From a virus: a DNA stretch of 24,286 nt. The notes under the pieces are model-generated. The model worked only from the letters and a program-made list of their open reading frames with translations. It was not told the DNA's origin and ran no database searches. Position numbers and translations under genes: made by a program. Each line of letters opens with the position of its first letter. The stretch's first letter is position 1. Shown here in pieces: positions 379 to 23,556 of the stretch. The stretch lies in IMG/VR virus record IMGVR_UViG_3300030105_002982, positions 1-24,286 of that record. The stretch is one strand, 5' to 3'.

Positions 379-406
379 TATAAATATTGTTATATGTTAT
401 AAATAT
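379..406 (-). promoter_or_regulatory. Tandem ATATTTATA motifs before a virion gene (candidate late promoter)
   Basis: Two copies of ATATTTATA (minus strand) lie at 387-379 and 406-398, 19 bases apart, in the 42-base gap before the start at 365. Spacers to the ATG are 13 and 32 bases. The same nine-mer recurs before four other genes. It shares TAT..ATA with the T4 late promoter TATAAATA but differs in the centre. The promoter function is inferred. Confidence 0.4.
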
Positions 407-407
407 G

Positions 408-3400
408 TTACTCTATTAGTTTTTTATCTCTTAGGTCACGAATTACTTCATCTGGCGTAACTTCCAGCTCTATTATTGGATATTCCGGTTTAAGAATACC
501 ACTAGGCGTATTATCTGATTTTAATAGTGGTTTTATATATTCAATAAAACTACCTGAAGTTTCCATAATTGTTGTTGAACCTGTTGCATTTGCTCCTGTT
601 GAAGGACCAGTACCATCGTTATATGTTAATATATTATTGTCCGAAGATACGAACTCTTTTACGGTAGGCAACGAACCATATGGAAACACTCTATCTACTA
701 TTACTGAGTTAGGTGCATCTACATATCTTCTAATTAAGAAGAAATTTAAATCAATAGATGATGCAATAGGTCTATCAACAGTTAATCTAAGTTTATCTAT
801 ACCATTTATTATAAAATTCTGTTGTGGTGTAAGTACTGTGATTACTTTGTAAGAATACCTTTCATCATTTTGAAATCTAATTTCATCATTAATTCTAAAT
901 TCATATGGTACATTAGGTAATGGCCATGCTGTATCTTGTGGTTCTAAACCTCCTGGGAAGTTATTGTTTGCTGATGCAGTATAAGGTAAATATCCTTGAT
1001 AGTAACCTAAACCATAACTATTATTTCCATTAGGTGATTGTAATTCTAATATTGTATTTTGAAGTGTTACTGTTCCTGTTGGTGAGCCTTCTGTAAATGA
1101 TACAACTACATCATCTGTGTTTGCAAATGGGTTTGCATAATATGAAACATTACCACCATTTTGTAAATCATTAAAAAACGATATTGTTGCCCAATTATTT
1201 GAAGCATCAACATCTACTGCTGATATAGTTCCTGTCCAACTACGATTACTATTACCTACTACTTGAGCATACATTGTACCTAATGGTTGACTTGCACCAG
1301 TTGCTGTTTCTAAATTTGTAAGTATAGCAAGGGCTGAACCATTAGCTGCTGTTGTTCTTAAAGCTATCTGATTTGAACCTTCTTGATTATTAATTGTATA
1401 ATCTGAAGTTAACGTGAAAACTAAATCTGTATTAACAGTTCCAAATCCTGCATTTTCTAAGTATAATTTTTCAAATGTTATTGTATCACCCGCTACAAAA
1501 CCATTAGCTGTAGCAAGGTTTGAACTTAAAGTTGCATTTGTGATTGTAATTCCATCAGATGAAATACCAAATAAATTGCCAAATACTTGACCTTTTCCTG
1601 ATGTCGTTTGTGGGTATAAAAATCTAGTAGTTTGGTTAGTTGCAGTTACTGCATTTCTAGCTGCATTCCAAGTTTGACTGTTATTAGGAGTTAATCGTAA
1701 TGAACCACTTGCATTATTCCACATTATTTGTCCTACTGGTGGTTCGCTTATAATTGATGTTTGATCAAATGGTGTACTATTATTTCTCATTTGATATTGA
1801 AATTCATTGGCTGCTGAAGAACCGGATGTAAAATTCCAATATGGGAAATTTAAAGCATTAGATTGTAAACTAGATGCTGCTTGGCCTCCTATTACATTCA
1901 TTGATACATAAGGACCATCTGATGGTATATTTGTTGTATATGGTACTGGATTTGAATTTGAACCCCCACTTGCACCATCTGAAAATTGTGGTAAGTATGT
2001 TGGGTTAAATCTATTTCTTTGAGCTTCTCCGGTTTGTCCTGAACCATCTAATCCCCCTACTTCAGTATCATATTCACCTACCATTTGGAATCTATATCTT
2101 CTTCCAGATACTAAATCTACATTTGATTCAAAAGCAAAATCATAAGTTACATATTGTACTTTACCTACAGTATATCCTGCACCACTTAAATAATTTTCAA
2201 TGTCATTAGCTTCAACTTCATATGTGTATTCTGTCTTTTGAGCATTAAAACCAACGTTATCAGATAGTGACCATAAAGGTACCACTGCTATATCACCATT
2301 TGGAGTACCATCTATATCTCCAAAATAAAATGTCATTGTAGGTTCTTGATATCCTTGTGGTGAAGCATTAGATAACCATTGGAATGGTTCGTCTGTCCAT
2401 TGAGCCGTTCCTAATTCTAAATCTGTGTTAGTTGTAGATTCAAATCTAAATGATACTGTACCTACATCACCTGCTTTATATTTTGTTTTTTTCTTATTTT
2501 GTTTTTTAACAAATTTCTTTGTTTTATATCTAGATGGGAATGTTGATGGTTGAACAAACGTTCCTCTAATTTGATAATCATCACTTAAATCTGTTGAACC
2601 TGAACCTAATGGATCTGCTGTAAAGAAAACTTCACCTGGATTACCAAAATATTCTGTACCAAATACATCTGTTGGTGCTGTATATGGAGTTGCGATTGAT
2701 GATGTTATAATAGGTAATTCAATTACACCATTTACATCTGGATTTGCTCTTTTAACACCCCAACCTGATCCTGAAGATATTGTAAACCTAGTACTATCAA
2801 AAGCACCTGGAACTTGAGGCATTATTTGTGTTGTTTGTGTTGCTATACCCTGAGCAATGTTAAAATAATTTACATTAATAGCATTTTGTTCTTGTGATAG
2901 CTTATTTGAACCCTGAGATGTCATATCATATTCTATATATGATGATGTTACATTTGATATTTGTTCTGCGTTACCAGCTATTGGAATTGCTTGTGCAAAA
3001 TCGTTAGCTGATGTTTGAGAATATAATAATGGTATCGCTTGTTTTCCTACTTTAAAGGTAGATTGAAAACCATTTAAAGCATCAAACTGTGTTGATCCTG
3101 ATACTTGATTAATACCTACTTGACCTAATCCTCCTTCATCCCATGTACCTAATACATCAAATGCTGTGTATTCTGATAGTAATGGGTTTAAAGCATCTCC
3201 ACCAGCATTAATCATATACAATATATTAAATTGTGTTTTTGAATTTACTACTGGATATGGGTCTGTTACTTGATCACAATATGCTAAATAAGCTCTCTTG
3301 TAATCTATAACGGGTGAATTACCAAACCCACCTTCTAATCCTATTATTGAATTATAATTGTATGCTGTTGTAAATGATCCAACATATCTATTATTTAACC

Positions 3401-5675
3401 AAGAATCTGTTGTATAATTCGATTCTGGTACTGTAGATTTTCTAGCTGAACCTGATAGTATCTGTTGAAAATTAGTAGGATCATAAGGATCTGTTTGATA
3501 TTCAACTAATTGTATGTTTTTATTATTTCTTTCTTGTACTACATTATTTAATAATGGTTGACATTCAGGCGCATTTGAAAATCCATCTGTGCCTTTATAT
3601 GAGTTATCTATAAATGTAGGTACTCTACCATCTCCACCTTCTTGTGAAGCAGCATTGTTAAATTCTAATGTATATTCGCTTACAACAAGTGAATTTTGAA
3701 CTAAAGATGCTAAATCTGATCCAGATGTAACTGATAAAGATAAATTTAAGCAATCTTGAAATGTTATTGATGATGAAGGCAATACAAAACTTGTTGTAAT
3801 TGCTACACCATTATTCCCATAATCACCACCTAAAGTAATAAATTCTTCTGTGTGTAATGGTGAATCTGATTCTTTAGGTACATTAGTTGGATAATTACCT
3901 TTATATATGTTTATTGAAGCTGTAGGCCATGATGTCCCATCTCCTTCTTCACCTTCACCATAAACTGGTGTAGCAGGTGAAATAGCATATGTTGAACTTG
4001 CATCATCATATTTTGCACCATCATCACTACCTGTCCAAGCATTTAACAACATTGAAGCTGTTACATAAATATCTTCAGTTGGTAATTGATTAAATACATA
4101 AAGACCATCTATAGATTCACTAAGTGAAGATGATAATGATAAATAAACATCACTTATCCTTGAAGAATATATGTCTATAGGTGCGGTTCCTGCTGCTGTT
4201 GGAGAATTTAATTCTAATGTAAATGTTTGAGATGAAACATCATCTGATGCAGATACTGTTCCAGGTAATGCTATAAATGTAGCATTAAATCCCTCATTTA
4301 TTATTGAAAAATTAGGTACTCCAGTTGAACCTGTATAATCTAATCTAACAGGTTGGTTATTATTTATATTTACTGTTGCTTTATATTCTACATAAGTATC
4401 GAGTTGTGCCCATAATCCAAATTGACATGATCCAGTTGCTGCTGTTCCATCAGCAGATGTTGTATCAAAATCACTTGAAGTAAATGACCACTCTCCTTCA
4501 AAAAACTTAACTGAATTTGAAAATAAAGGGTTAGTATTTAATTGTGTTGTTTGTTCTTGTGATACTTTACCTATTAATTGCGCACCATTAAATGAAGCAG
4601 ATATCGCAGCATTATTAGCTGGAGGCCATGTTCCATTAATTTGTGGTGTATTAACTGTAAATGTCCAGTAATCTGGAGATTCAGCCATTGATGCAATTGT
4701 ATAAGCTGCTGAGTTATTTGTAAATCCAACTTCGGAAAGAACAATTTGACCCATTGGTTTTCCAGCATTACCAGATTGGCTAATGTTGCTTATAACAAGA
4801 CTTAAATTTAATCCTGTACCACTTTGTCCTGTATTGTATGTAATAGATGTCACACTCGCTGCTGTTGCATTGTTAGCTGCTACTTTTGCGTTTGTAGGAT
4901 CTCCTCCTGCTATCGATGTATTCCAATTTTTATCAGCGTGTGCATTTGCTCCTCTACCTTCAACTTCTGAAGTTTCTAAGTAAATATTCCAAAGTGAACC
5001 CACTACTGGTGGTGTTCCTAATGAAGAATATTTTGTATAAACCCATGGACGTATTTGTCTTTGACCATCAATTATTGAAAATGAACCTGAGCTAAATGAT
5101 TGTGATACTAAAAATTGATTGTTAGGTTGGTCTAAATTACCAACTATACCTTGTTGTTTTACATTGTAAACATTATTAAAAGGTATTATACCATTATTAG
5201 TTGCTGTGCCTTCATTAAAAATCTTTCCAACAGGAAGAAATGGTTGTGTTCCCACACCTGATCCCGTTTCGGTTAGCATATATAATTTGTAAGGTCGATG
5301 TAAATACGCGTTATATTGCGTGTGATTAGAATCTCCCGGACCAGCATCTGTTGGCGTACCTACTGGTGTAGTATTAGCTGGTTGTATGCCTCTATAAATC
5401 CACAATTCTTGATCATCTTCTATGGGAATTGAAAAACCTGGGTTACCAGCAGAAAAACTTGCCGAATTATATACGGCTGAGCTTTGATAAGTAATTGCTT
5501 GACCAATAGATTTAATTTTGGCTACCGTATTTAAATCCGTAATTGGGAAATTCTTACTACTAGTTAGTAATGCGTTCATATCTGACACATTAACTATGGT
5601 ATTGCCCTCAGATCCTACTAAGATTTGATTCGTATCTTGTTTATAGTAGTAATTTACTTGTGGTTGTACAGCCAT
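408..5675 (-). CDS. Giant virion structural protein (1755 aa), probable tail fibre or baseplate appendage
   Basis: This is a 1755-residue protein with no signal peptide or membrane span. It is rich in Ser, Thr, Asn, Gly and short SGS-type turns, the composition of beta-rich phage fibres. No domain is recognised with certainty. Residues about 1049-1067 form a striking basic patch (10 Lys in 18 residues: YKTKKFVKK then QNKKKTKYK) in an otherwise neutral to acidic chain. It is followed by a beta domain rich in aromatic residues. Residues about 1376-1430 (GFVAGDTITF, then DLVFTLTSDY) weakly resemble a beta module repeated in the 2281- and 510-residue proteins. The end (VTPDEVIRDLRDKKLIE) is charged and helical. 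The start codon overlaps the stop of the upstream nucleotidyltransferase-fold gene as TAATG, implying coupled translation. Position beside baseplate genes supports a virion role. Tail fibre versus baseplate component cannot be decided. Confidence 0.75.
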   Translation of the reverse strand: MAVQPQVNYYYKQDTNQILVGSEGNTIVNVSDMNALLTSSKNFPITDLNTVAKIKSIGQAITYQSSAVYNSASFSAGNPGFSIPIEDDQELWIYRGIQPANTTPVGTPTDAGPGDSNHTQYNAYLHRPYKLYMLTETGSGVGTQPFLPVGKIFNEGTATNNGIIPFNNVYNVKQQGIVGNLDQPNNQFLVSQSFSSGSFSIIDGQRQIRPWVYTKYSSLGTPPVVGSLWNIYLETSEVEGRGANAHADKNWNTSIAGGDPTNAKVAANNATAASVTSITYNTGQSGTGLNLSLVISNISQSGNAGKPMGQIVLSEVGFTNNSAAYTIASMAESPDYWTFTVNTPQINGTWPPANNAAISASFNGAQLIGKVSQEQTTQLNTNPLFSNSVKFFEGEWSFTSSDFDTTSADGTAATGSCQFGLWAQLDTYVEYKATVNINNNQPVRLDYTGSTGVPNFSIINEGFNATFIALPGTVSASDDVSSQTFTLELNSPTAAGTAPIDIYSSRISDVYLSLSSSLSESIDGLYVFNQLPTEDIYVTASMLLNAWTGSDDGAKYDDASSTYAISPATPVYGEGEEGDGTSWPTASINIYKGNYPTNVPKESDSPLHTEEFITLGGDYGNNGVAITTSFVLPSSSITFQDCLNLSLSVTSGSDLASLVQNSLVVSEYTLEFNNAASQEGGDGRVPTFIDNSYKGTDGFSNAPECQPLLNNVVQERNNKNIQLVEYQTDPYDPTNFQQILSGSARKSTVPESNYTTDSWLNNRYVGSFTTAYNYNSIIGLEGGFGNSPVIDYKRAYLAYCDQVTDPYPVVNSKTQFNILYMINAGGDALNPLLSEYTAFDVLGTWDEGGLGQVGINQVSGSTQFDALNGFQSTFKVGKQAIPLLYSQTSANDFAQAIPIAGNAEQISNVTSSYIEYDMTSQGSNKLSQEQNAINVNYFNIAQGIATQTTQIMPQVPGAFDSTRFTISSGSGWGVKRANPDVNGVIELPIITSSIATPYTAPTDVFGTEYFGNPGEVFFTADPLGSGSTDLSDDYQIRGTFVQPSTFPSRYKTKKFVKKQNKKKTKYKAGDVGTVSFRFESTTNTDLELGTAQWTDEPFQWLSNASPQGYQEPTMTFYFGDIDGTPNGDIAVVPLWSLSDNVGFNAQKTEYTYEVEANDIENYLSGAGYTVGKVQYVTYDFAFESNVDLVSGRRYRFQMVGEYDTEVGGLDGSGQTGEAQRNRFNPTYLPQFSDGASGGSNSNPVPYTTNIPSDGPYVSMNVIGGQAASSLQSNALNFPYWNFTSGSSAANEFQYQMRNNSTPFDQTSIISEPPVGQIMWNNASGSLRLTPNNSQTWNAARNAVTATNQTTRFLYPQTTSGKGQVFGNLFGISSDGITITNATLSSNLATANGFVAGDTITFEKLYLENAGFGTVNTDLVFTLTSDYTINNQEGSNQIALRTTAANGSALAILTNLETATGASQPLGTMYAQVVGNSNRSWTGTISAVDVDASNNWATISFFNDLQNGGNVSYYANPFANTDDVVVSFTEGSPTGTVTLQNTILELQSPNGNNSYGLGYYQGYLPYTASANNNFPGGLEPQDTAWPLPNVPYEFRINDEIRFQNDERYSYKVITVLTPQQNFIINGIDKLRLTVDRPIASSIDLNFFLIRRYVDAPNSVIVDRVFPYGSLPTVKEFVSSDNNILTYNDGTGPSTGANATGSTTIMETSGSFIEYIKPLLKSDNTPSGILKPEYPIIELEVTPDEVIRDLRDKKLIE

Positions 5676-6211
5676 TAACTCGTTGGTTTATTGTTATAAA
5701 TATAGTCAGACATTTTCTGTAATCCAAGGGTATATTTACCTTCTTTTTCCATTTTTTGTCTCCATTTAAAAGATTTATTAGGTTTAGTATATTTATTTTG
5801 AAATAATCCAGGAAATATCTCTTCTCCTTCGAATTTTTTTATAATATGTTCTTCACCTCTTATTTTTTCTACTTCATTGAAATTACTAATTCTTTTATGA
5901 GGTAGGAAAGTTTTGTCATATATTTTATCTTGCCATACAATATCTACTAATAGCCAGTGTTTAAACCCTATTTTTATACCTTCATCTAATACATATTTTA
6001 AGTCATCAGGGTATTTAAAATTACCAGTTAATATTATATCAACATCCCAAGTTTGTGTTCCTTCTATAGTTCCCCCAGCTATGTAAACTTCAAATTGGTC
6101 TAGATATTTGGTTTCTTTAAATGAATTCCACCAAACTAACACCGCTTCTGTTGTAGGTCGTTCCCAAGGTCTACTTGTAGATATTTCTCCTATTCTATAT
6201 AACTGGTTCAT
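5675..6211 (-). CDS. Nucleotidyltransferase-fold protein
   Basis: This 178-residue soluble protein carries the signature of the DNA polymerase beta-like nucleotidyltransferase superfamily. The sequence YIAGGTIEGTQTWDVDIIL (residues 43-61) matches the hG[GS]...Dh[DE]h pattern, with G46-G47 and carboxylates D56 and D58. A third carboxylate, D90, sits in the next hydrophobic strand (HWLLVDIVW). All three metal-binding acids are therefore present and the enzyme could be active; its substrate cannot be read from sequence. The C-terminal 70 residues are Lys- and aromatic-rich. It lies between two giant virion genes, 11 bases after the 2281-residue gene, and its stop overlaps the next start (TAATG). 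That makes it co-expressed with virion proteins. The upstream region (AAAAGATTAAATT) lacks a Shine-Dalgarno sequence. Alternatives: an inactive fold recruited as a structural or assembly factor, or a host-modifying transferase. Confidence 0.6.
   Translation of the reverse strand: MNQLYRIGEISTSRPWERPTTEAVLVWWNSFKETKYLDQFEVYIAGGTIEGTQTWDVDIILTGNFKYPDDLKYVLDEGIKIGFKHWLLVDIVWQDKIYDKTFLPHKRISNFNEVEKIRGEEHIIKKFEGEEIFPGLFQNKYTKPNKSFKWRQKMEKEGKYTLGLQKMSDYIYNNKPTS
5695..5703 (-). promoter_or_regulatory. ATATTTATA motif before the 1755-aa virion gene
   Basis: The motif lies within the last codons of the nucleotidyltransferase-fold gene, 19 bases ahead of the ATG at 5675. It is the only one of the six copies inside a coding region, where it encodes part of DYIYNN. 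The promoter role is inferred from recurrence. Confidence 0.35.
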
Positions 6212-6222: not shown

Positions 6223-9200
6223 TTATGGATTTGATCCAAATCCTCCACCATTATTTCCTTGGTCTTCTACTTGAAAATATTGTGTTATTGAACAAAATTG
6301 ACCTAGTTGACTTGGGTTCGATATGTTTATTATTGTTATGTATGCTGTTCTACTAAATAGACTTGAATTACCTCCACCTGTATATCCATTTTGTACTGTA
6401 AAAGTAACATTAGGATAAATACCTGTACCTGTTTGTGTTACATTAGCTGAAGGGGTAAGATTAGTTACCCAACCGAATCCATCAGCATATGTTAATTCAA
6501 CTTTCCATTGACCTGATTGATCTGTCATGCTAATAGCTGATGATAATGTTCCATTACCACTGTTAGAAAGGTTTGATATTCCGAGCCCACAACTAAGAGT
6601 TATTAGGTTTGGATTATTTCCTGATGGGTTTGATGTTTGAGATAAGTTAACATTAGTTGCTGTTGGTACTGTAAATTTAGTAAATGATAAAGGTATTCTT
6701 TCAGCCGATGCTGTTATTGATCCTGTAAAGAATTGTAAATCTGTTGCTCCTAAATTTCCTAATGTAGATGATGCACTTAATATTAAAAATGTTGAACCAC
6801 CGTTTCCTCCAGTATCTCCAGCATTCATATACCAAGGGTATGTACTTACTTGATATGGATTAAGATCATCATTGTTTGTTTCGTTTGAACCTGTATTAAA
6901 GTTATTTAATGGGTCATATAAAAATCCATTTCCAATACCGGTTTCAACTAAACCTCCATCATTTGTTATATCAAACCAATTAGCTGTTGCCCATCCTCTA
7001 AAGAAGGATTCAGTTGAAAATAAAGACGTTGCTGAATCTGATTCTGGTGGGAAATAACCTTGTGCTACTGATCTTGTAATTCCTGATTCATGTACTACAT
7101 TTGGATCTACTCCAGATGATGTAGCATAATAAACAAATTGTCCACTTGCACTAAATGAGAAATCATAAAATAACTCATCAAATGATGTTACCGCCTCTGT
7201 TGATGGCTCTTGGTTTACAAATATTAATGCACTGTTGTTTGTGTTATTTAATTGGTTTTGTAGTGATACATTACTTATAAAATAATTTTCAAACCCATCA
7301 TCTAATAAAGTATTAAGATAATCTGCTGCTCCTGTTAACGTATAAGTAATAAATCGTGAATCTTGAATAAACGATAATGTACCTTCTCCATTAATGTCTT
7401 CTTCAGACATTTTTATATATTTTACCTTATTTGAAGGTACAGGATCTAATTGTTGTGTACCTAATACTAAAGTAAGTGCAGCACTAGCAGCTGTAATACC
7501 TGCTGTTACTAATGCTGTTTGTTTTATATTTATCGTTCTATCACCATTATATTTTTTAGTTACACCTGAAAATAAATCATCTGCTCTAAGTGTTAATACT
7601 AAATCATCTCCTGGATTACCAATAAGAGCTTTTGCAATTGTAACTGTATCTCCTACATCATAAAGTGCGCCTTGAACTGTTGCTTGAATAGTTGCTACGC
7701 TTTGAGCATCTACAACAACTGTAAATCGTGCATTACCATCTCCTGTTCCTGATGTAGTTGCTACTACATTTGTATATGTACCGTTTGTAGCTAATGTTAC
7801 ATTAGTTGAAATTGCGTTAGTTAAATTGTTGGTTTTTATTATAAAAGATGTATCAACAAAAGAAGCTTTATTTAATGAAAAATTATTTGTTCCTGGGTTA
7901 AAATTTATAAATGATAATTCTATTATACCACCAGCTCCTTGTGCACCTGGTCCTGTATATGTAAAATCTGATACTCTATAATTTCCTCCACCATTTGCTA
8001 CATTATTTGTAATAGCTAAGTTTGGATTTAATGCTCTTCCATCTCCTGGAAAAGATACAGTATCTGCCCAAAACCAATTATTCCCATGTTGAGGTTGGAA
8101 TTGATTTGCATCACTTATAAAATCATTTTCTTTAATAGTGTTATCATTAAACCATTGTATGTAAAAGAAATAATCAATCCTTGCATCCTGTCCAAAAAAT
8201 GCTTTACATGGTTCTGTCTGTAATATACCAGGTGTTAAAACGTTTATAAATTCACCATTATAAAATTCTCTTTGATCAAATCTTTGTAAGTCATATGGTG
8301 CTTGACCATAAACATTAGATGTTGATTCTGTAATACTAGAACCCATAGGCATTCCAATACCTAATTGTGTTTGTAATGGTTCTGTAAATTGTTGAACAAC
8401 TCCTGGGTATAATTGAGCAAACATTGAAGCCGAAACTTCTGCTGCTGTTTTACCACTATAAGGACCTTCATTTAAAGTAAATGTAGTTCTATATGAAGCT
8501 GTTACATTTGATTGTGGTTCAGGTACTGCTGATAAAAATGGTATAAATTGTGGAAATGATGATGTATTAAAAGTACCAGTACTAAAAATAGTTTGAATGG
8601 CTGTTACGTCCATATCCCAATAACCATCCTTATTTGGTGATGATGAATTAACTGCCCCTACTTCTAAAATTAAATCTCTATCATATGATGCTGGGAATCC
8701 AGCTGCAATTAAGGCTGTTTGTGATATTGTTATTGTTTCACCAATATTATAATCTAAACCTATATCTTCAATTACACACCTTACATTAATAAAGTTGTAA
8801 TTATTTGAATTATTAACTTTAATTGTAATTCCTGTTCCATTACCACTTGTTGATGATGGCGACATTACTACACTAACGCCACTTGCTCCTGCTACTCCAC
8901 CTGAATTAGGTTGTTGATTAATTGTCAATTGAGTACTCTGTAGAAGAGGTGGTGATATATAATTAAGTGAATTAACTTTATATTTAGCTTTTATATCTCT
9001 TTGATATTGATTTTTATCAGGATTATATACTTTGTTTATAAAGTTAGTTGTTTGATCAAATTCAACTTCTAAACTATATTTACCTGGATTTTGAGCCATT
9101 GAAGCACTTGCTCTAGTAATTGGATTAAATATGTTTGAATTATAATCCGTAAGAGGTGCATTACCTAATGTTAATGAATCTGCAAATATCTTAGTAGCTG

Positions 9201-12200
9201 TAGCTCCATCTTGACTGTTAAAGGCAAAATATCCTAACGATGAAGACGCAACTGATGTTGATGCTATCGAGCTTGTAAAGTTATAAGTATAAGTAAATAT
9301 CTCATTTGATTCACTAATAGGAGCGGCAAATATATTATTAAATGGTTCAAATGCACCACCTGTTCCTCCACTATATCTATAAATTGAAGAACCACTTGCA
9401 AAGTTTTGCTGTGGGAAATCTGATGTTCCTAATGTAGGTGCTAAGTTGTTTATACCAACTACAATATTTACATCGTTAGCTACGGATGTTGGTGAACCTG
9501 GTGTTGCTTGTAATGCATTAATAGATGCTGATATTGACGCTGAGGATAATGTAATTATTTCTCCTATAGCATATCTACTACCTGTTAGTATTACTTGAAA
9601 CTCCGTAATTTGATTTGATTTAAGTAAAGGTATAAATGTAGCTCCGTTTCCAGATCCATTAGTTGTTCCTAATATTGCAGTTGTTCCTCTACCATTGTTA
9701 AAGTTAACTGTATCTTGTGCTGCTGATGCTGATATTACCTGGTCATTAATTAATGTTATTCCTGGTCTTTCTTTAGCATAGTGCACATTATAATCTCTTG
9801 CGAATGACTTAACAGAACCCGAATATTCAGGTACAGTATAAGACATTGAAGGTGGTGCTTGTTTATTTCTTTCTAATAAATTTTGTTTAATTACTACACC
9901 TGAACTTAATGTTGTTCTAGCAGGCGTAAAATCTTCTATCATTTTAAATAATGAATTATCAAAGAATTTAATTAATCTAATAAAATCATTTAAATCATAG
10001 CTACCAATGTATTTTTCAAAATATTCGTCTCTTAATTTATCTAATGCTGGATATGAATCTATTGATTCAGATATCTGTCTTGGATCACCTATGTATTCAC
10101 CTAAATTAAAATCACCTATTTGAGCAATTATGTCATCATTGATTTGATTTTGTGGTGAAAAAGCAACCTCTAAATAGTTAACACTTGGATTACTACCACT
10201 TGGGTATTCATTCTGTTGTACTGATCTATATGGTGATAATGTTGAGCCTGAAGGTATTACTGTATTAACTAAACGTATCTTATCAGATATTCTGTTTTTT
10301 ATACCTCCTGGTGTTTGATTATAATATATAGATTCTGTATTCTGTGACCAACTACCTGTGTCATTTCCTATTATATGAAAATCACTAGTATTTGGACTTC
10401 TAAATGATTGTGTTATATCCCAAGATCCTGTTATTTTAGGGTGTATTGATTGTCTACTAGATGTATTTAATTCTGTACCTAAATCTGCCCTAAATATTAA
10501 TTCTTGTGGTGTTGAGTTGATTGAGTTACCTTGTGTTGAGTATGGATTTACAACATAGTCATAAAATAAGCTTTCACTTAATACTACATCCCAATATCTT
10601 ACTTCTTGTAAAGAACCGGTTAAAGGTAAATAATCAATACTAGCAGCACCATATATATCTTGACCATATACTGCTAAACCATAATTTGATGTAGGTACTG
10701 GTCCTAATGTTAACGCACTTGCACTTGGGAAATATGATTTTTCTACTGACGTCCAATATTGAGGGTCTGTAATGTCTACTGATTTAACAGCTTTAAATCC
10801 TACTCCCTCTCCTATTCTATTAGCACCATAAATGTAAGCCTTTTTTGTAACTGCATCGTCATAATCAAATGATGCCTGTATTGACCACCAACCTCCATCG
10901 AAGAATGGTAAATCAATTTGTGCAAATTTTTCTTTATTATGTCCTACAGATCCTTCAGGGTAAAATCTTAATTGCCCATATGAATTATTATTAATCGGTA
11001 CAGAACCGCTATAAGATCCACTTTGGAATCCTGACCCTGTATATGAAAGCGTTATAAATGCTTTATTTGTATCACCTACCCAAACATTCTGATAAAAAGA
11101 TGATGTTGGTATTCCTGGTGTTTTAAATCTAAATTGTATTGATTGTGGGGACTTAGCAGGTGTTTCAGCTGATTCTATCCAACTATTATTCATCTGAAAT
11201 GATGAAGTAAGTGCTGTGTAATTTTTTATACCTTCTAAATGTAAAGCATAGTTAAATACTTCTTGTTTTAAATCCCAATCTTGTGTAAAATCCCTATCTC
11301 TACCTCCAAATTCGCTTACTCTTAAAATTGTAGACGGAATTCCATATGAAGTTATTAACGCTTTTAGTCCACCTACTGTACCTTTTTTCTTAAGTAAATA
11401 AGGTAAATTATGGTAAACACGCTTATATAACTGCTGGTCTACTTCGTTTAATGGGACTATATCATTCGATGCTGATATTGTATTATTCACGTATTCAAAC
11501 CCAGAAGGCGTGTTAACTACGCCACCTATTGAACCTGTCATGTTGGGGAATGGGAATGCACTACCTGATGGTGTTATTCCTAAAAATGCGGTATATAGAT
11601 CGTCAGTATTAAAGTTACTAGAATAAAGTTTTACACCAAAATCTCTAATTGCGTCAGCAACTAAATCCCTTGATATACCATAATCTAACCTGTTATCAGC
11701 ATTAAATCTATTTGTTAAATCTTTAGTATATAACCAAGTATTATCATACTGTTGAGCAACCATATCAACGAATAAATCATATTTAGCGTTGCTTGGATCT
11801 GATCTTAAATATTCTGGTATTGTGTTATATAAATAATCAGGATTTTCATCATCATATCTTGATGCTGTTCCTGCTTGTCCTAACTCATCAGTTGCATTTC
11901 CTAACCAATCTATTGCTTCAGTACTACCTGTAGTTGCTAGAATATAAGGAGGTGCGGATGTTGTTTTAGGCCATGATTTAGCTGATCCACTATTATAGTA
12001 TAAAAAATATTCATACCCATCAAAGTGTTTAGTTATATCTTCTACCTGAGCAGTTAGTACTGCCTTGCTTGAACTATATTCAATATTTACAGATGCATTA
12101 GGTATAACAGCTATTGAATTTGTAAGTCTTTCTATTAGGCCTACTTTATAACTGAAATTTTCTAATCTTGTAAATGCTGATGAAAAGTGAACGAAGTTTT

Positions 12201-15135: not shown

Positions 15136-16980
15136 TTAAAATAGTGTTACTACTCTACCTTTAATATCGGTATTTGGATATTTTAATTCAAAAATACTAG
15201 GATCTAATGAAGGGAATATTGTGCCGTTTTGATTAGCACCATTCATATCATAAGCCCATTCTGAATATCCTGTTCCAGTACCTGCTTTATTGGTAAAATT
15301 GATTTGTTTTACTGTTTGTACACCATCTATTGCATCTAATAATACAAATAGATCGGGTGTGATTATTGGTTGGTTAACTTGCCACATATCTAATTTAAAA
15401 TAATTTTGTAATGCACCTATACATCTCTGTAATACTTGGTTGTTATTATAATTTGGATATGTTATTATTTCAAAATCAATAGCAAAATTAATAATGAATG
15501 CATCTTTAATACTAATAGTATCTCCGATCATTCTATACTCATTTAAATATGTTTTTAAATTGTTTTTTAAAGTAGTTGAAGCGGTAGTTAATTGGCTTAG
15601 GTTATTTTGTGATAACACATAAATATCTAATGTTGTTGATGCTTCATCTGCTTCTGGTTTTTGTGTAAATGCTTTAGATATAATTCCGAACTTACCAGGC
15701 ATACTTAATGATCTTACTAAATAATCATCTTGCGTTACGTTTCTTAACTGCGTTGAAAAGTTTGAAATTGCATTTTGTCTAATTTCTTCTATTGTATCTC
15801 CATCTTTACCACCAGAGGCTGCTACTGGGTTATTAGCTGCTATTGAGTTAAATACATACTGTGCTGTTACTTGATTTAATGACCCATCGTTAAATTGTAT
15901 TGTGGAAGTATTTACATTATTTAAAGAATTAGCTAATATGTTAGAAGTTACTCCACCACCTGTTAAATATCTTACTGTTAAAGATGTGTTTGTAGGTGTT
16001 GTTCCGTAAGTATTTGTAAATATAAAATTAGTTGGACTATATGCTGTTGTTAATTTATCCTGTCCAAATGGTAAACCTAAACCTACATTAAATGGGTTTG
16101 GTATTACTGTTTCTGTTGTTGTAGCTGGTGAACCTGCTCCAAATTGTAATTGTAAACGTTGGTTTGTTAATACTCTAGTTGCAAACCTATTTTGTACTGA
16201 TTTTGTTTGTAACAAATATGGTGCATCTGTATCTAGGTAAGTATTAGGATCATTAAGGTTAGTATTTCTTATACTATCAAAAACTAAATCTTGTCCTAAG
16301 TAATCTACTTCATACCAATTGTTACCATCTGTATCTATAACATCTATAATACTTGCTATTTGAGCACCATCAATATTTACAGTTGCAAATTCTACTGGGG
16401 CTCCAAAAGTGAATGTTTTAGAAACTATCTTTCCTGAAAATGCTCTAGCAGATTTTTTTAATAAATAATAATCCGGCACTCCTCCTGATACTTGAGCAAT
16501 TGTTACTGTTGTTGGGTTGCTTGAACTTGATACATTAAAATCTATTGGATCTTCAATTGTAAATGTTTGGGATGTTCCCGTTCTTGTTGAAATTTGAGTA
16601 TTAGCGTTAACATATAAAGCATAATCATAATCTGGTTCTGCTATTCCTCCTACTAATTTTCTAGGTACCTGTTGATAAACGTCAACTGTTGTAGTTGCTA
16701 AACCTGTAGTTTTAGGTTTGTACCCATACATATAGGCCATGTCATACAGATTGTTTGTTTGACGAGCGTACTGTAAATAATTTTCTTGTATTTGGTTATC
16801 TAAATAAAAGGATAACACATCACCTACATACGCTGCTTGCTCTATAAACATCATTCCTGGTGATGTTGTTGAAAAGTCAGTATATGTTGTAGGGAAATAA
16901 GTCTGAGAATAGTTAATCAATTGATTTCTATACTGTGAAAAATCCTTATTTATATAATTTATGTTTCTATTAACTGCCAT
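15136..16980 (-). CDS. 6: Baseplate wedge protein gp6 (baseplate J family)
   Basis: The 614-residue protein is a clear relative of T4 gp6 and the baseplate J family. It forms the ring that ties baseplate wedges together and rearranges when the tail contracts. The N-terminus shows the hallmark NYINKDFSQYRNQLINY, then YFPTTYTDFSTTSPG, MMFIEQAAYVGDVLSFYLDN and QIQENYLQYARQ. The middle contains GGKDGDTIEEIRQNAISNF and a run characteristic of J proteins (TQDDYLVRSLSMPGKFG). The C-terminus carries DTISIKDAFIINFAIDFEI and NYFKLDMWQVNQPI, as expected for the wedge-interacting domain. Length is close to T4 gp6 (about 660 residues). Its ATG overlaps the gp25 stop as TAATG, the usual gp25-gp6 adjacency of contractile tails, so the two are translationally coupled. 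Confidence 0.93.
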   Translation of the reverse strand: MAVNRNINYINKDFSQYRNQLINYSQTYFPTTYTDFSTTSPGMMFIEQAAYVGDVLSFYLDNQIQENYLQYARQTNNLYDMAYMYGYKPKTTGLATTTVDVYQQVPRKLVGGIAEPDYDYALYVNANTQISTRTGTSQTFTIEDPIDFNVSSSSNPTTVTIAQVSGGVPDYYLLKKSARAFSGKIVSKTFTFGAPVEFATVNIDGAQIASIIDVIDTDGNNWYEVDYLGQDLVFDSIRNTNLNDPNTYLDTDAPYLLQTKSVQNRFATRVLTNQRLQLQFGAGSPATTTETVIPNPFNVGLGLPFGQDKLTTAYSPTNFIFTNTYGTTPTNTSLTVRYLTGGGVTSNILANSLNNVNTSTIQFNDGSLNQVTAQYVFNSIAANNPVAASGGKDGDTIEEIRQNAISNFSTQLRNVTQDDYLVRSLSMPGKFGIISKAFTQKPEADEASTTLDIYVLSQNNLSQLTTASTTLKNNLKTYLNEYRMIGDTISIKDAFIINFAIDFEIITYPNYNNNQVLQRCIGALQNYFKLDMWQVNQPIITPDLFVLLDAIDGVQTVKQINFTNKAGTGTGYSEWAYDMNGANQNGTIFPSLDPSIFELKYPNTDIKGRVVTLF

Positions 16981-17396
16981 TATGCAAAGTTTAGTGTTAA
17001 GTCATCTGTAATTCCTGTGTTTGTAACCGAATAAAATAATTCTACTGTTACATTATTGTTATCAGTATTTTCCGGTCCACCATTAACATTTAATTCATTT
17101 AATATTATATTAGGAAATTCAGTTGTTAGCTTTGATTGTATATCCTCTATTAAATAGTCTATATTTTCTGTAGCAATTTGTGAAAAAACAAATTTTCTTA
17201 AGCCCCCACCAAAAGCAGGATTACCTGGTCTTTCGCCTGGGTTTGTTAAGAAATAATTTATTAAATTACTTTTTATTGCTTCTTTCGTTGTATAATTTGG
17301 AGTAAATACCCCACCCTCGTTAAAAGGTATATTAACACCAATACCTACTCGAGATCTTGTGTCGTTAGGAAATTTATTTATTGCTCCAAATGCCAT
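16980..17396 (-). CDS. 25: Baseplate wedge protein gp25 (GPW/gp25 family)
   Basis: The 138-residue protein belongs to the GPW/gp25 family, the wedge component that nucleates sheath assembly and is homologous to type VI secretion TssE. The family signature is plain at residues 55-66, GERPGNPAFGGG, followed by LRKFVF. A downstream amphipathic helix (IEDIQSKLTTEFPNI) leads into the C-terminal strands with the LNLNF-type end (TDDLTLNFA). Length is typical (T4 gp25 is 132 residues). It starts six bases after the 120-residue gene and ends in a TAATG overlap with gp6. No Shine-Dalgarno sequence precedes the ATG; the upstream sequence is A-rich. Together with gp6 this fixes the window as the baseplate region of a contractile-tailed phage. 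Confidence 0.93.
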   Translation of the reverse strand: MAFGAINKFPNDTRSRVGIGVNIPFNEGGVFTPNYTTKEAIKSNLINYFLTNPGERPGNPAFGGGLRKFVFSQIATENIDYLIEDIQSKLTTEFPNIILNELNVNGGPENTDNNNVTVELFYSVTNTGITDDLTLNFA

Positions 17397-17402: not shown

Positions 17403-17765
17403 TTATTTACTTTGCATCATACCCATTATTTGATCCATGCTTACATTCCCTTCAGGTAAACTAGCATTTGGGGATTGTGTATCCATACCTGCTGTTACTT
17501 GCATAGGCACATTTGCTGATGTAGCATTTAATGTTCCGTTTGCTCCTGGTCTCATACTATCTAAAACTCCCATCATGTTTTCCCTTAATTTTAACTTATC
17601 AGTTTCAGCTAATGGTGCTGAAGATACTGCTGGGGCATGTGTAGTAGATGTTATAACTTGTGATTGGGGATTTTTAATAGCCTCTAGTAAAATATCCTTC
17701 ATTTCTTCTTGGATAGCTTCTCTTACTGCCGTTTTTACTACGCTTTTTAGTTCACTTAATTTCAT
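17403..17765 (-). CDS. Small virion-cluster protein, function unknown (120 aa)
   Basis: The N-terminal 30 residues (MKLSELKSVVKTAVREAIQE, then EMKDILLEAIK) form a strongly amphipathic helix. A Ser/Thr/Ala/Pro linker and a Met-, Asn- and Gly-rich tail follow, ending MDQIMGMMQSK. No catalytic motif or membrane span is visible. I recall this kind of N-terminal helix from conserved hypothetical proteins of marine T4-like phages but know no tested function. It is the first gene after a 32-base gap that holds an ATATTTATA motif and is directly followed by gp25. It may therefore head the gp25-gp6 transcription unit. A baseplate assembly or structural adaptor role is inferred from position only. The opposite-strand reading frame over this gene is a shadow. 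Confidence 0.6.
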   Translation of the reverse strand: MKLSELKSVVKTAVREAIQEEMKDILLEAIKNPQSQVITSTTHAPAVSSAPLAETDKLKLRENMMGVLDSMRPGANGTLNATSANVPMQVTAGMDTQSPNASLPEGNVSMDQIMGMMQSK

Positions 17766-17784: not shown

Positions 17785-17793
17785 TATAAATAT
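17785..17793 (-). promoter_or_regulatory. ATATTTATA motif before the gp25-gp6 gene group
   Basis: The motif is in a 32-base intergenic gap, 19 bases ahead of the ATG at 17765 and followed by an A/T-rich spacer. Spacing to the start equals that before the 1755-residue gene. Candidate late promoter; function inferred from recurrence. Confidence 0.4.
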
Positions 17794-19336: not shown

Positions 19337-19337
19337 A

Positions 19338-20639
19338 TTATGAAGTTTTAACTGTGTTAGACTTAAAACTAGGAATTAAATTTTTAATTTCCTGAAGAAT
19401 AGGCTTTGTTAATCGAGCAGTAGCTCCCGCTGCTGGTATTTTTGGTTCTTTAGCTAAAGCTGAGCATAGGTTTTCTAGTGATGCTACTAAATTTTCAAAT
19501 TGTAACATAAACTTATCTCCTAAAATAACGGACTCTGATGCGTTTTGTTTACCTAAACTTACTATACCTGATGGTGCTAATAAATTTAAATTTTTATATT
19601 GTGATTTTATTGCTAAGTCATCAATCGATTCTAAAACAATGGATTGAGCGGATGACATTAAAATACTTTCTTGACTTGAATTAAATAATAATCTACCTGA
19701 GTTAAAAATTACTTGGGGTTTATTATATGATTTAGGAGATTGAGGTGTAAATTGAATTGTATTTGCAAATGGGACTGTTGATCCTTGAGCATCTTGTCTA
19801 TTTTCAACAGCAACACTAATAGGTATTTGTTGATTAGACGTCATATAAATTGATGCTAAATCATTGTTAATATTTTCAGTTACAGGTATCCAACCTTCAG
19901 CACTTGCGGAAGGGGATTGTCCATTTCTTAATATTGTAATTGGGCTACCATTATCTCCTGATGTTGACCAATTGTTTCTTATTAAACCTTGTGATTTAGA
20001 TGTATTACCTAATCTTATACTATTGCCAAATCTACCTTCTAAAATGTTATCTCCAGCAAAGGGTAAAATAGGGTGTATATTAGACTTTTCAACAAATGTT
20101 CCACCACTTTCTCCATTTAAATCTAATTCAGTTACCTCAGTTGTTGTTCTTCTAACATTACCTGTTTCTATTTGTTGGTATGATTTATTTAAGGATGGAG
20201 ATGTTTGACCATCATTACTAGCAAACATATCTGGATATGCATTGTGGTTAGGTGCGTTCCATATTGATATAGGATTTAAATAATAATAGTTAGCGCTATT
20301 ATTTAATTGTGTATTAGTAGTATCTGGTAGTTTAAATAGTAATACCACCTCATTTACTAAAGGATAATTTTTTAAATGTGGTAATAAAGGCTTAGCAATA
20401 TTATTAACTTTTGACTGATTTATACTAGAGATGGTAGAAGGAACATCCATTAATTGGAATGAAATTGTACCAATACCGTTCCACATACCAGTTTTAGCCC
20501 ATAAGGCTGAATCAGTGTTTAGTGAAATATCAACTACTCGAGCAGTAATTAATTTATCCTTAACATCCTCAATCGACCTAAGATTCGGTCCTTTTGTCTT
20601 ACCCTGACCGAATAGTGATGTAATAGGATTATTAGCCAT
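19338..20639 (-). CDS. 5: Baseplate central hub / spike protein, gp5-like without lysozyme domain
   Basis: The 433-residue protein resembles the gp5 hub proteins of T4-like phages. An N-terminal OB-like region (TARVVDISLN...IGTISFQL, residues 32-63) is followed by the hub hallmark GDNILEGRFGNSIRLG at 196-211. A repetitive beta-strand region at about 308-365 reads QVIFNSGRLLFNSSQESI, then SIVLESIDDLAIKS and GIVSLG. It is likely the trimeric beta-prism or needle, and a helical tail follows. T4 gp5 has 575 residues with an internal lysozyme; here the chain is shorter and I see no lysozyme-like E...D/T catalytic segment. Peptidoglycan cleavage must be done by another protein or is not needed at the tip. 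Its ATG overlaps the preceding stop as TAATG. Confidence 0.78.
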   Translation of the reverse strand: MANNPITSLFGQGKTKGPNLRSIEDVKDKLITARVVDISLNTDSALWAKTGMWNGIGTISFQLMDVPSTISSINQSKVNNIAKPLLPHLKNYPLVNEVVLLFKLPDTTNTQLNNSANYYYLNPISIWNAPNHNAYPDMFASNDGQTSPSLNKSYQQIETGNVRRTTTEVTELDLNGESGGTFVEKSNIHPILPFAGDNILEGRFGNSIRLGNTSKSQGLIRNNWSTSGDNGSPITILRNGQSPSASAEGWIPVTENINNDLASIYMTSNQQIPISVAVENRQDAQGSTVPFANTIQFTPQSPKSYNKPQVIFNSGRLLFNSSQESILMSSAQSIVLESIDDLAIKSQYKNLNLLAPSGIVSLGKQNASESVILGDKFMLQFENLVASLENLCSALAKEPKIPAAGATARLTKPILQEIKNLIPSFKSNTVKTS

Positions 20640-20992
20640 TACTTTTCTTTTTTACTTTCTATACTTTCATTTAACTTGTCTAGTTCAGCTAATAATTCTT
20701 CTTTTTCAGCATCTGATATACCGAAATCATCTCCACCATCTGAATTGTTAACTGCTCTCTGTATAATTGTAGCCATTTTAATTAATTGCTCATCATTACG
20801 AACACCTATTTCTAGATATTCCTTAATAAGTGGTACAATTAAAGTAGCATCGCCAATATCAGCGATTAAGGGTTTTAATTCCGATATTAATCCCGATATT
20901 TGAGTCTCCTTTTTCTTTTGGTTATCATATATCTCACTTAATATATCGGAGAATTTTTTCTTACCAAATACAACACTGTCTAATACTCCCAT
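20639..20992 (-). CDS. Helical late-cluster protein, function unknown (117 aa)
   Basis: This short, mostly helical, charged protein starts MGVLDSVVFGKKKFSDILSE. It has a coiled-coil-like stretch (about 20-50) and an acidic C-terminus (SDAEKEELLAELDKLNE) ending in a Lys-rich tail. It has no membrane span or catalytic motif, and I do not recognise the family. It opens the late structural cluster. An ATATTTATA motif lies 11 bases before the ATG in the 36-base gap after the sigma gene, and its stop overlaps the hub protein start as TAATG. Co-translation with the gp5-like hub suggests a hub assembly partner, chaperone or baseplate adaptor. That is an inference from position. Confidence 0.6.
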   Translation of the reverse strand: MGVLDSVVFGKKKFSDILSEIYDNQKKKETQISGLISELKPLIADIGDATLIVPLIKEYLEIGVRNDEQLIKMATIIQRAVNNSDGGDDFGISDAEKEELLAELDKLNESIESKKEK

Positions 20993-21003
20993 AATGTTTT
21001 TAT

Positions 21004-21012
21004 TATAAATAT
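21004..21012 (-). promoter_or_regulatory. ATATTTATA motif at the head of the late structural cluster
   Basis: The motif is in the 36-base gap between the sigma factor stop (21029) and the 117-residue gene start (20992), 11 bases ahead of the ATG. It would place a promoter exactly between the regulatory gene and the hub genes. Function inferred. Confidence 0.4.
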
Positions 21013-21028
21013 GGATATAGGATAAGTG

Positions 21029-21736
21029 TTAAAACTTACACCAACCGTTTTCTAAGAAGAAAACATATTTAGATTTAAATATCTCGTGTAGTTTATCTGC
21101 TATTTTAGTTATTTTAGGGGTCTTAACATCAACCATCTCGCGAATATAAATGTAAAGTGCCTTTTTATTAAATACTTCTATAGTTTCTCTCTTTCTAAAT
21201 AACTCAAGTATAGCATCTGCTATCTGAGCATCATTCTTTTTAGGGAACAATTCAAAAATATTTTCTGTAGTGTATTCAAGGTACAATTCAATATATTCAC
21301 TTAATTCACTTTTTTCTTTAGCGTAATCCTTAATTTCATATGTGTAAGTAGAATTATCTTTAGTTAAATATTCAACATCTACTTTTTTAATCTTTTTACT
21401 ATAATTCTTAGTGTTATATAATATTAACCAACGTTTTACTATCGTACCAAAATAAGAGTATGCCTTAGCACCTCTTGTTGGGTCAAATAAATGTATTTTT
21501 GAAAGCAAAAATGTTATTATCTCATGCTGTAAGTGCTGAAGATTGTCTACTTCTGTATGGTAAAATTTAAATGTGTGAATGATATTCTCGGTGAGCTTAA
21601 AATAGGGATAATGAATATGCTTAGCATATATATCACTCCTCATTTTAGGACACTCTGTGTTGTTGTAAAGAACTATAGCGTCCTCCGTGTCTTGAGTAAA
21701 ATAATTTTTACTCTTCTTTCTTCTCTTCTTAATCAT
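21029..21736 (-). CDS. 55: Phage late sigma factor, gp55-like
   Basis: The 235-residue protein looks like a minimal sigma factor related to T4 gp55, which redirects host RNA polymerase to late promoters. Residues about 64-107 match sigma region 2: DNLQHLQHEIITFLLSKI, then HLFDPTRGAKAYSYFGTIVK and RWLILYN. The conserved DPTRGAKAYSYF core is typical of the phage late-sigma family. The N-terminus is very basic (MIKKRRKKSK). The C-terminal part has a short helix-turn-helix-like stretch (about 205-222) and a hydrophobic end (VFFLENGWCKF). By analogy with T4 gp55, that end may be a contact for the sliding clamp or a coactivator. Its ATG overlaps the preceding stop as TAATG, and it lies immediately before the late virion genes. 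The sigma call is firm; the clamp contact is inferred. Confidence 0.78.
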   Translation of the reverse strand: MIKKRRKKSKNYFTQDTEDAIVLYNNTECPKMRSDIYAKHIHYPYFKLTENIIHTFKFYHTEVDNLQHLQHEIITFLLSKIHLFDPTRGAKAYSYFGTIVKRWLILYNTKNYSKKIKKVDVEYLTKDNSTYTYEIKDYAKEKSELSEYIELYLEYTTENIFELFPKKNDAQIADAILELFRKRETIEVFNKKALYIYIREMVDVKTPKITKIADKLHEIFKSKYVFFLENGWCKF

Positions 21737-22005: not shown

Positions 22006-22008
22006 AAA

Positions 22009-22779
22009 TTATAAATTATCTAACATGTTTTTGAGTCCGGGACTTGATATTGTATTAAGTGCTTTTGTTTTGGTACTCTTATTTGACGTCAATGTATAAT
22101 TTTTCTTTGGCGCCTCCACGCTATTCTTAGAAAACTTTGGTAACCATTCAACTTCAAATTCAATACGAGCAGCTAACATATCAGCTTGATGTAAAACAAA
22201 CGGTAAAGATGTGCGAGGTTTTTGTTCTGGCATGTAAGCTTTTAAATATTTCTCATTTGCTGCATCATATAAACCATCATGAGTCTGAATAGCTATCATT
22301 TCATTAAATGTATAGGATATACCATGTTCTTGAAGTAGGAATAATCCACGATCTGGAACAGAAGCGAAGGCTAGTTTTTTATTAAACATATAATCTTCAC
22401 CTAATTTATCTTGTCTCCATTTATCGGTCTGAGGTATATAAGCTTCATGTTCTGAATCGCCCATTTTGCCTAAGTCATGATTAATAGCTGAGAATACTAA
22501 TTCTTCTTGGGTAAATGTAGTCATATCACAACCAAATTTTTCCCATGTAGCAGACATTGCTAATGCACCACTTACAACACGATTAACGTGATCTACATAA
22601 CCACCAGGAAATGCTGAATGGTATTCTTTCTTATGTGATGCTGGCATTAGTATTATCCTGTCTTCATATTTGTTATAGAAGTCAAGTAATTTACTGCAAC
22701 GTTCTCCAGTAATATGGTTTCCAATATTACCTAAAAATTCCTCCCAATTAGATTGGATTTGTTCTGCTGTTAAAATCAT
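22009..22779 (-). CDS. HD-domain metal-dependent phosphohydrolase
   Basis: The 256-residue soluble enzyme belongs to the HD superfamily. Metal-ligand residues are visible in order: H64 in GGYVDHVNRV, the paired H101-D102 in INHDLGKMG, further His at 152 and 167 (QTHDGLY), and the closing D200 in HQADMLAARIEFE. Known HD enzymes cleave phosphomonoesters, dNTPs, cyclic nucleotides or (p)ppGpp; the sequence does not tell which. The last 40 residues are Lys/Ser-rich and probably flexible. The start follows an A-rich leader (AAAAAAAAACAGGTT) in a 23-base gap after the 62-residue gene. It is followed by the membrane-anchored small protein and the late sigma gene. Likely roles are nucleotide-pool remodelling or removal of a host signalling nucleotide, both inferred. 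All key residues are intact. Confidence 0.82.
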   Translation of the reverse strand: MILTAEQIQSNWEEFLGNIGNHITGERCSKLLDFYNKYEDRIILMPASHKKEYHSAFPGGYVDHVNRVVSGALAMSATWEKFGCDMTTFTQEELVFSAINHDLGKMGDSEHEAYIPQTDKWRQDKLGEDYMFNKKLAFASVPDRGLFLLQEHGISYTFNEMIAIQTHDGLYDAANEKYLKAYMPEQKPRTSLPFVLHQADMLAARIEFEVEWLPKFSKNSVEAPKKNYTLTSNKSTKTKALNTISSPGLKNMLDNL

Positions 22780-22802
22780 AACCTGTTTTTTTTTAATTTA
22801 TA

Positions 22803-22991
22803 TTAATTACCTGCGTGATCCATAGGCTCCATTTCAATCATACTTTTAATTTCATCTACAAGCGTTGATGCTTTAGATATATTAGCCTTGTAAGTTTCAA
22901 TTGGTTCCTGTGTATTCACAATACGATTAAGATTAGTTAATGTAGAATCTAATACATCTAACTTCCTGTTTAATAAATTTCTATTTCTCAT
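22803..22991 (-). CDS. Small helical protein, function unknown (62 aa)
   Basis: The 62 residues predict almost entirely as helix: MRNRNLLNRKLDVLDSTLTN, then a second helix ending EIKSMIEMEPMDHAGN. Hydrophobic spacing would suit a helical hairpin or short coiled coil. No motif is recognised. It is the first gene after the 130-base gap that can form a two-stem RNA and a second hairpin, so its expression may be controlled through that leader. The HD hydrolase follows 23 bases later. The ATG is preceded by ATATAAAAAACAAGTC, A-rich and without a Shine-Dalgarno sequence, like other starts here. Confidence 0.55.
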   Translation of the reverse strand: MRNRNLLNRKLDVLDSTLTNLNRIVNTQEPIETYKANISKASTLVDEIKSMIEMEPMDHAGN

Positions 22992-23007
22992 GACTTGTTT
23001 TTTATAT

Positions 23008-23035
23008 GATATAGGTATTTTTTTACCTTTATATC
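23008..23035 (-). other. Hairpin in leader of the 62-aa gene
   Basis: On the minus strand GATAT-AA-AGGTA-(A6)-TACCT-ATATC forms ten base pairs with a two-base bulge and an A6 loop. It lies 16 bases before the ATG at 22991. No U-tract follows, so it is not an intrinsic terminator. Likely an RNA structure near the ribosome entry site. Seen in sequence; function unknown. Confidence 0.45.
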
Positions 23036-23044
23036 CTTTGTTTT

Positions 23045-23092
23045 AATCCCATTTTTTCTTAAAAACCGAACGTTTCTAAGTTACAAGGGATT
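23045..23092 (-). other. Two-stem RNA structure in the 130-base intergenic gap
   Basis: In the minus-strand transcript, AAUCCC and GGGAUU close an outer six-base-pair stem around an inner nine-base-pair stem (CUUAGAAAC / GUUUUUAAG, loop GUUCG). The inner stem is continuous only on the minus strand, where one pair is G-U; on the plus strand the same position is an A-C mismatch. This favours an RNA made in the gene direction. The AAUCC arm can instead pair with GGAUU at 23104-23100, so two exclusive folds are possible. The rest of the 22992-23121 gap is A/T-rich and holds no supported gene. Confidence 0.45.
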
Positions 23093-23121
23093 TTTGTGTA
23101 ATCCTAATTATTTTGATAAGT

Positions 23122-23541
23122 TTATTTTAATAATTTTTGAATCCCAAATAAATGAGCACATTTCTCATAATCCTCTAGGTCCTCAAAATACTGAACAGCT
23201 CCTTTTAGTGTACTATTTAATAACTTTTTATCAAAACTTATAATAGCCTCAATATCATCATTACTATTTATGTCAATCTGCTCAATATAACTCCAGGCTC
23301 TACTGTAAATTGTAAATTCTGATGCTTCTTTAGTAGATTCCACATTATAATCAGGTTGTTCCCTTTTAAGAAATTTCTCTAATTTTAAATGGAAAACATG
23401 ATGGTTTTGAATTAATTTTACAAACATACCCATCTTAGCATATGGACCTTCCATAAATTCCTTAATTTCTTCTTTAGTTTGTTTATCATCAGGTTCCTTA
23501 CCATCAGAAAATAATTTAAATATTTTATCTTTATCCATCAT
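23122..23541 (-). CDS. Soluble helical protein, function unknown (139 aa)
   Basis: This charged, predominantly helical protein contains two features of note: KEEIKEFMEGPYAKMGMFVK near the N-terminus, followed by a His-rich stretch (LIQNHHVFHLKLEKFL), and a C-terminal half with EDLEDYEKCAHLFGIQKLLK. There is no membrane segment or recognisable catalytic motif. The two clustered histidines and a single Cys are not enough to call metal binding. Two ATGs stand in tandem (23541 and 23538), and the first is taken here. An ATATTTATA motif lies 6 bases ahead. If it is a promoter, the mRNA would be almost leaderless. The 60-residue gene stops 18 bases upstream. Gene identity is well supported by length and by lack of overlap with another frame; function is unknown. 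Confidence 0.62.
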   Translation of the reverse strand: MMDKDKIFKLFSDGKEPDDKQTKEEIKEFMEGPYAKMGMFVKLIQNHHVFHLKLEKFLKREQPDYNVESTKEASEFTIYSRAWSYIEQIDINSNDDIEAIISFDKKLLNSTLKGAVQYFEDLEDYEKCAHLFGIQKLLK

Positions 23542-23547
23542 ATCGGG

Positions 23548-23556
23548 TATAAATAT
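23548..23556 (-). promoter_or_regulatory. ATATTTATA motif before the 139-aa gene
   Basis: The motif is in the 18-base gap between two small genes, only 6 bases ahead of the first ATG (9 ahead of the second). This is the tightest spacing of the six copies. Either transcription here is nearly leaderless or the motif acts at the RNA level. Function inferred. Confidence 0.35.

Follow-up and report, generated by a model that had tools for sequence, protein, structure and literature searches.

A probable late promoter element with an altered T4-type box in uncultured viruses and Flavobacterium phage immuto

Placement of the nine-mer in the window

The stretch of marine viral DNA analyzed here (24,286 nt, the window) repeats a nine-mer, ATATTTATA, shortly before several of its genes. 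Does this word belong to a late promoter that has diverged from the canonical one, or does it act as a signal at the RNA level? The first-pass annotation had left both options side by side and had pointed to a gp55-like sigma factor encoded in the window as the possible reader. All six copies lie on the minus strand in sense orientation relative to the genes, at exactly the positions first given for them, and a scan of the whole window yields these six sites only, in agreement with the earlier impression that no copy lies deep within a gene. The distance between the 3′ end of the motif and the start codon measures 32, 13, 19, 19, 11, and 6 nt (copies 1a, 1b, 2, 3, 4, and 5, respectively), which reproduces the range of 6 to 32 nt noted before, and four of the six copies are directly followed by A, as had also been observed.

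The first two copies form a tandem before ORF 3-365, with copy 1b (ATATTTATA-TAAAAA; 379..387, minus strand) at 13 nt and copy 1a (ATATTTATAACATA; 398..406, minus strand) at 32 nt from the start. Two relatives (L271 and L285) have the counterpart of copy 1a ahead of the orthologous gene, also at 32 nt. Copy 2 (ATATTTATAACAAT; 5695..5703, minus strand) is found 19 nt before ORF 408-5675 and is indeed the one copy that falls within the last codons of a preceding gene, ORF 5675-6211; its ortholog is present in L286. The gene downstream of copy 2 (408..5675, minus strand) encodes a 1755-aa protein and is one of two very large genes without a PHROG match in the baseplate/tail region, the other one (6223-13068) encoding 2281 aa. 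Copy 3 (ATATTTATAATAAA; 17785..17793, minus strand), 19 nt before ORF 17403-17765, is situated upstream of two baseplate wedge genes, encoding a gp25-like (16980..17396, minus strand) and a gp6-like protein (15136..16980, minus strand), and the same site was found in relatives. Copy 4 (ATATTTATAATAAAAA; 21004..21012, minus strand) directly follows the sigma gene, 11 nt before ORF 20639-20992. Copy 5 (ATATTTATACCCGAT; 23548..23556, minus strand) precedes ORF 23122-23541 by 6 nt and has a degenerate downstream flank; in relatives, the full element is present before a gene whose product starts with MIDK.

A comparison with shuffled sequences, which had been proposed as a control, gave a different answer for number and for placement. 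Counted across the whole window, the nine-mer is not significantly enriched (six copies, against a shuffle mean of 2.9, with six or more copies in 7 out of 100 shuffles). However, the 45-nt stretches upstream of 20 window genes contain six sense and no antisense copies of ATATTTATA, while dinucleotide shuffles of the same stretches contain 0.13 copies on average and reached six in none of 5000 cases. The frequency upstream of genes thus exceeds what base composition predicts.

Conservation of an extended element in related viruses

Related loci were collected from IMG/VR with the sigma-like protein (21029-21736) as query, which returned 80 loci in a first scan, and many more were added with immuto-like and intermediate query proteins. 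In 81 loci (the 80 plus one), 163 out of 225 copies of ATATTTATA are in sense orientation and no more than 60 nt ahead of a gene, compared to 7 out of 225 that lie antisense upstream of genes, and eight larger contigs have the same one-sided strand bias. Both the marine contigs and Flavobacterium phage immuto follow an extended consensus, (A/C)TATTTATAA-Y-AAA, i.e., ATATTTATAA[T/C]AAAA. The carriers comprise hundreds of uncultured relatives besides the cultured phage immuto, and contigs of the window clade have the element ahead of tail fiber genes.

Behind the sigma gene, the element is retained in 41 out of 46 distinct orthologous gaps. Positions 0–9 and 12–14 are invariant among the gap sequences that retain it; since the alignment was anchored on the nine-mer, only the flank counts as independent evidence here. 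This flank (AAYAAAA) places A+T-rich DNA immediately downstream of the box. The element is found at a median distance of 13 nt from the start codon, with the middle half of the distances between 12 and 15 nt. An A+T-rich word might accumulate by chance in A+T-rich intergenic DNA, and the unremarkable bare count in the window would fit such an origin, but the composition-matched shuffles, the strand asymmetry, and the conservation refute it, which reduces its probability to a negligible level.

Unbiased word search

For every 8-mer, we compared its occurrence upstream of genes with the expectation of a second-order Markov model. Applied to the T4 late genes, for which the answer is known, the same procedure ranks TATAAATA at the top. 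In the late regions of immuto, the top 8-mer is TATTTATA. This word is also in excess upstream of genes in all three contig groups, with 48 observed versus 5.3 expected occurrences in window-like contigs, 92 versus 12.2 in intermediate contigs, and 49 versus 11.3 in immuto-like contigs, while sense TATAAATA is near expectation in each of the three.

These counts bear on the earlier remark that, in the window, the canonical T4 element is correct only when the non-coding strand is read. TATTTATA is the exact reverse complement of TATAAATA, which is why an inverted canonical promoter, firing antisense into the preceding gene, had to be considered. We discarded it and leave it only a very slight chance, as an extra AAYAAA is conserved on the gene side, the element keeps a set position with respect to the start codon downstream, and none of the contig groups is enriched in sense TATAAATA. 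The remark is thus literally correct, yet the relationship is coincidental, and flank and orientation identify TATTTATAA as the sense reading.

A second promoter class with a TTG box

Many small early genes are preceded by a different sequence, TTG-N20-TATATTTAGG(TATCAATAATTAAAA), with a strict spacer of 20 nt (class 1). It occurs in immuto (L088-L091) and in many of the loci L007-L086, L102-L181, and L201-L269, and its −7 box is often preceded by TTCG. When spacers of 15 to 25 nt between TTG and TATATTTA were compared, N20 was found in 104 sequences and each other spacer in 0 to 5. The TTG is present at a single spacing in 82 out of 130, 36 out of 37, and 32 out of 36 sites of three class-1 subtypes. 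The strongest upstream word of the marine set, CGTATATT, had been a candidate coding remnant; this idea was dropped, because the word is the −7 part of class 1 with a TTG at fixed spacing. Separately, ATAAAGGT(T) is strongly enriched close before the ATG, mainly at class-1 genes (L007-L086, L201-L269).

Promoters of the Bacteroidetes sigma-A have the consensus −33 TTTG and −7 TAHHTTTG, with a near-invariant T at −12 and G at −5 (PMC6847099). Class 1, the early class of immuto and its relatives, agrees with this published consensus and is of the same type. No Shine-Dalgarno sites were seen at the window gene starts. Together, the match of class 1 to the host consensus and the lack of Shine-Dalgarno sites suggest that the window virus infects a Bacteroidetes host.

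The late element has no fixed TTG (−33/−35 box) upstream, and the upstream information is low in 61 dereplicated sites. A small TTG excess does exist at a few spacings, e.g., at N=21 (the class-1 register) in 8 out of 118 late sites, and a minority of the late sites may therefore belong to both classes. Copy 5 of the window (23548..23556) is perhaps one of them, since TTG-N20-TATATTTA (spacing read from the sequence) lies ahead of it; it would then possibly combine the late element with a class-1 promoter.

Late versus early genes in phage immuto

The genome of immuto (L088-L091) is complete and annotated. We defined its late regions as the blocks holding virion genes; as these were drawn by hand from the annotation after the motif positions had been seen, the following p-values are indicative. 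Among non-overlapping genes, the element precedes 16 of 53 late genes versus 8 of 122 early genes (p=8e-5), and the reverse distribution is found for the Bacteroidetes-type −33/−7 promoter (2 of 53 late genes versus 30 of 122 early genes, p=6e-4). The genes with the element upstream include those for the terminase, portal, tail sheath, and tail tube, and eight genes of the early region also bear it. An exact copy is absent at the other 37 of the 53 late genes, some of which are located downstream in operons, and the major capsid gene has no clear copy.

With this division, two further explanations can be weighed. The element could be a weak promoter, reduced to a −7 box, that is read by the main sigma factor of the host (with or without an activator) instead of a phage sigma. 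The box does overlap the Bacteroidetes −7 box TAHHTTTG through its ATATTTA core, and the minority of sites with TTG at the class-1 spacing, window copy 23548 included, would fit. However, the element retains neither the near-invariant T-12 nor the G-5 of the host box (PMC6847099), a −33 box is missing at the late sites, and late versus early timing in immuto separates the two promoter classes. We consider this explanation unlikely.

Less likely still is the RNA-level option of the first-pass annotation, under which the element would be A/U-rich mRNA that enhances the translation of late genes or recruits ribosomes to them in a host lacking Shine-Dalgarno sites. The fairly narrow distance to the start codon is what such a signal would produce, and A-rich leaders matter to translation in Flavobacterium (PMC6847099). 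Yet the distance between TATAAATA and the start codon in T4 is equally tight (mostly 24–28 nt), so known promoters can have this property as well. Moreover, the TATTTATA core accumulates at late genes and is underrepresented at early ones. Class-1 leaders have the A-rich stretch as well but lack TATTTATA. The tandem pair of the window and the copy inside the preceding gene also argue against a translational role, which we hold to be improbable.

The sigma-like protein

The candidate reader of the element is encoded at 21029..21736 (minus strand) and is a putative gp55-like late sigma factor of 235 aa. This assignment, already made in the first-pass annotation, is upheld by weak profile matches and a predicted fold. 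The window protein alone gave no match to PHROGs or Pfam at a threshold of 0.001, and a sequence search against solved structures returned nothing meaningful. Within its family, Sigma70_r2 matched 21 out of 29 members with weak scores. The PHROG late sigma HMM (PHROG 234) produced one weak match per whole record in three relatives, and a comparison of the coordinates by hand placed each match on the sigma-like gene. An hhalign comparison with T4-like gp55 resulted in a probability of 81 (E-value 1.2e-5 for one comparison) and was colinear from the N-terminus. Judged from sequence, the similarity to T4 gp55 is weak.

With a shallow alignment, AlphaFold returned a poor model (pLDDT 51), and with a deeper one, a model with a pLDDT of 83.6 and a pTM of 0.49. 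The latter model predicts a sigma region 2 fold at approximately residues 14–112 and a helical C-terminal domain at approximately residues 144–230. It superimposes on region 2 of sigma-B with a Z-score of 10.1 (rmsd 2.5 over 91 residues), and sigma factors make up almost the entire list of chains in the structure comparison. Since helical models can obtain such a Z-score by chance, we give more weight to the uniformity of this list. A Foldseek search against the PDB gave E-values above 0.1.

The C-terminal domain is possibly a region 4. The label comes from the fold comparison alone and is weak, as Pfam gave no region 4 match to this domain alone; structural alignments that span it have a large rmsd. 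Members of the T4 gp55 family have a short hydrophobic and acidic tail at the C-terminus that binds the clamp; the window protein terminates, after this extra helical domain, in YVFFLENGWCKF (window sequence), which is hydrophobic with one acidic residue.

Comparison with T4 and proposed mechanism

T4 late promoters consist of a TATA box followed by AT-rich DNA, without conservation at −35 (PMC2988020). The box is read by gp55, and gp33 together with the gp45 clamp couples late transcription to replication (PMC2988020). The element described here is alike in having a single TATA-like box without a −35 box, A+T-rich DNA downstream, a position in front of virion genes, a narrow box-to-start distance, and a small sigma-2 protein that is encoded by the phage. 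The boxes themselves (TATAAATA in T4 and TATTTATAA here) have six out of eight positions in common, with the middle AA changed to TT. The conserved Y-AAA after the box sets the element apart from the T4 late promoter, as does the distance from box to start codon (about 13 nt versus about 27 nt in T4). The shorter leader would suit hosts without Shine-Dalgarno sites. A variant of the T4 late box has been documented in a T4 relative, Aeromonas phage Aeh1 (PMC2988020), but there positions −13/−12 are altered (a/gC for TA), in contrast to the mid-box change found here. The literature searched does not describe TATTTATA as a late promoter of any phage. As for the sigma factor, it resembles T4 gp55 (PHROG 234) in its region 2, in a similar N-terminal segment, and in a weak but specific profile match. 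It differs in length (235 versus 185 aa) by 50 aa and in the predicted helical domain at the C-terminus.

Our favored explanation, to which we assign a probability of roughly 0.85, is a T4-type late promoter with this motif as its core and with a box that has been altered from TATAAATA to TATTTATAA; the phage sigma is its probable reader. The established features of the element (its position, orientation, conservation, concentration on immuto late genes, and absent −33 box) are joined here by the predicted sigma fold of the neighboring gene. The option of a diverged late promoter, one of the two put forward at first, is thereby strongly supported, namely by the marking of immuto late genes, the lack of a −33/−35 box, the conservation, and the T4 control. 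That the sigma factor at 21029-21736 is the protein that recognizes the element seems likely to us, with somewhat less confidence.

In the proposed mechanism, (A/C)TATTTATAA-Y-AAA would act as a lone TATA box that needs no −33/−35 box, and the gp55-like sigma would read it late in infection together with the host core RNA polymerase. We infer the late timing of expression from the element, as well as a transcription start about 3–6 nt downstream of TATTTATA, from which a short leader (about 1–30 nt in the window) would run to the start codon. In the register of the host −7 box (−12 to −5), the conserved pyrimidine would be at −1 and the next A at +1; with the T4 spacing instead, in which RNA begins about one helical turn past the box, the start would lie three bases further downstream.

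A sliding clamp of the T4 or the bacterial type was searched for with PF02916 and PF00712 in immuto and five IMG/VR relatives (two of about 160 kb and three of 87–114 kb) and was not found, while T4 was positive for PF02916; immuto and its relatives may have a diverged clamp. With a T4-type clamp apparently missing, it is of interest how these phages switch on late transcription. A more tentative idea, possible but not favored, is that a single sigma with region 2 and a region-4-like domain combines the roles of gp55 and gp33 and reads TATTTATAA clamp-free in Bacteroidetes-infecting T4-like phages. Late transcription would then be uncoupled from replication, with the late box having shifted together with the unusual −7 box of the host. 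Immuto is annotated with genes for a family A polymerase and a DnaB-type helicase.

For a large group of marine T4-like phages, most of them uncultured and probably infecting Bacteroidetes, the two classes supply predicted promoters of early and of late genes, from which timing could be read by sequence alone. The late class is also a naturally occurring example of divergence from T4 in both a phage late sigma and the box, for which the cultured pair of immuto and Flavobacterium sp. LMO8 offers a direct test system.

More distant sigma homologs

Two sources of more distant sigma homologs, Microcystis phage Mel-JY01 and LR756508, have neither TATTTATA nor TATAAATA ahead of genes within the tested regions and were dropped as motif sources; sigma and motif are thus not strictly linked. 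Another more distant sigma branch (L182-L200 and L095) has little TATTTATA and a Shine-Dalgarno-like TAAGGAGA upstream of its genes, which suggests other hosts or another late box.
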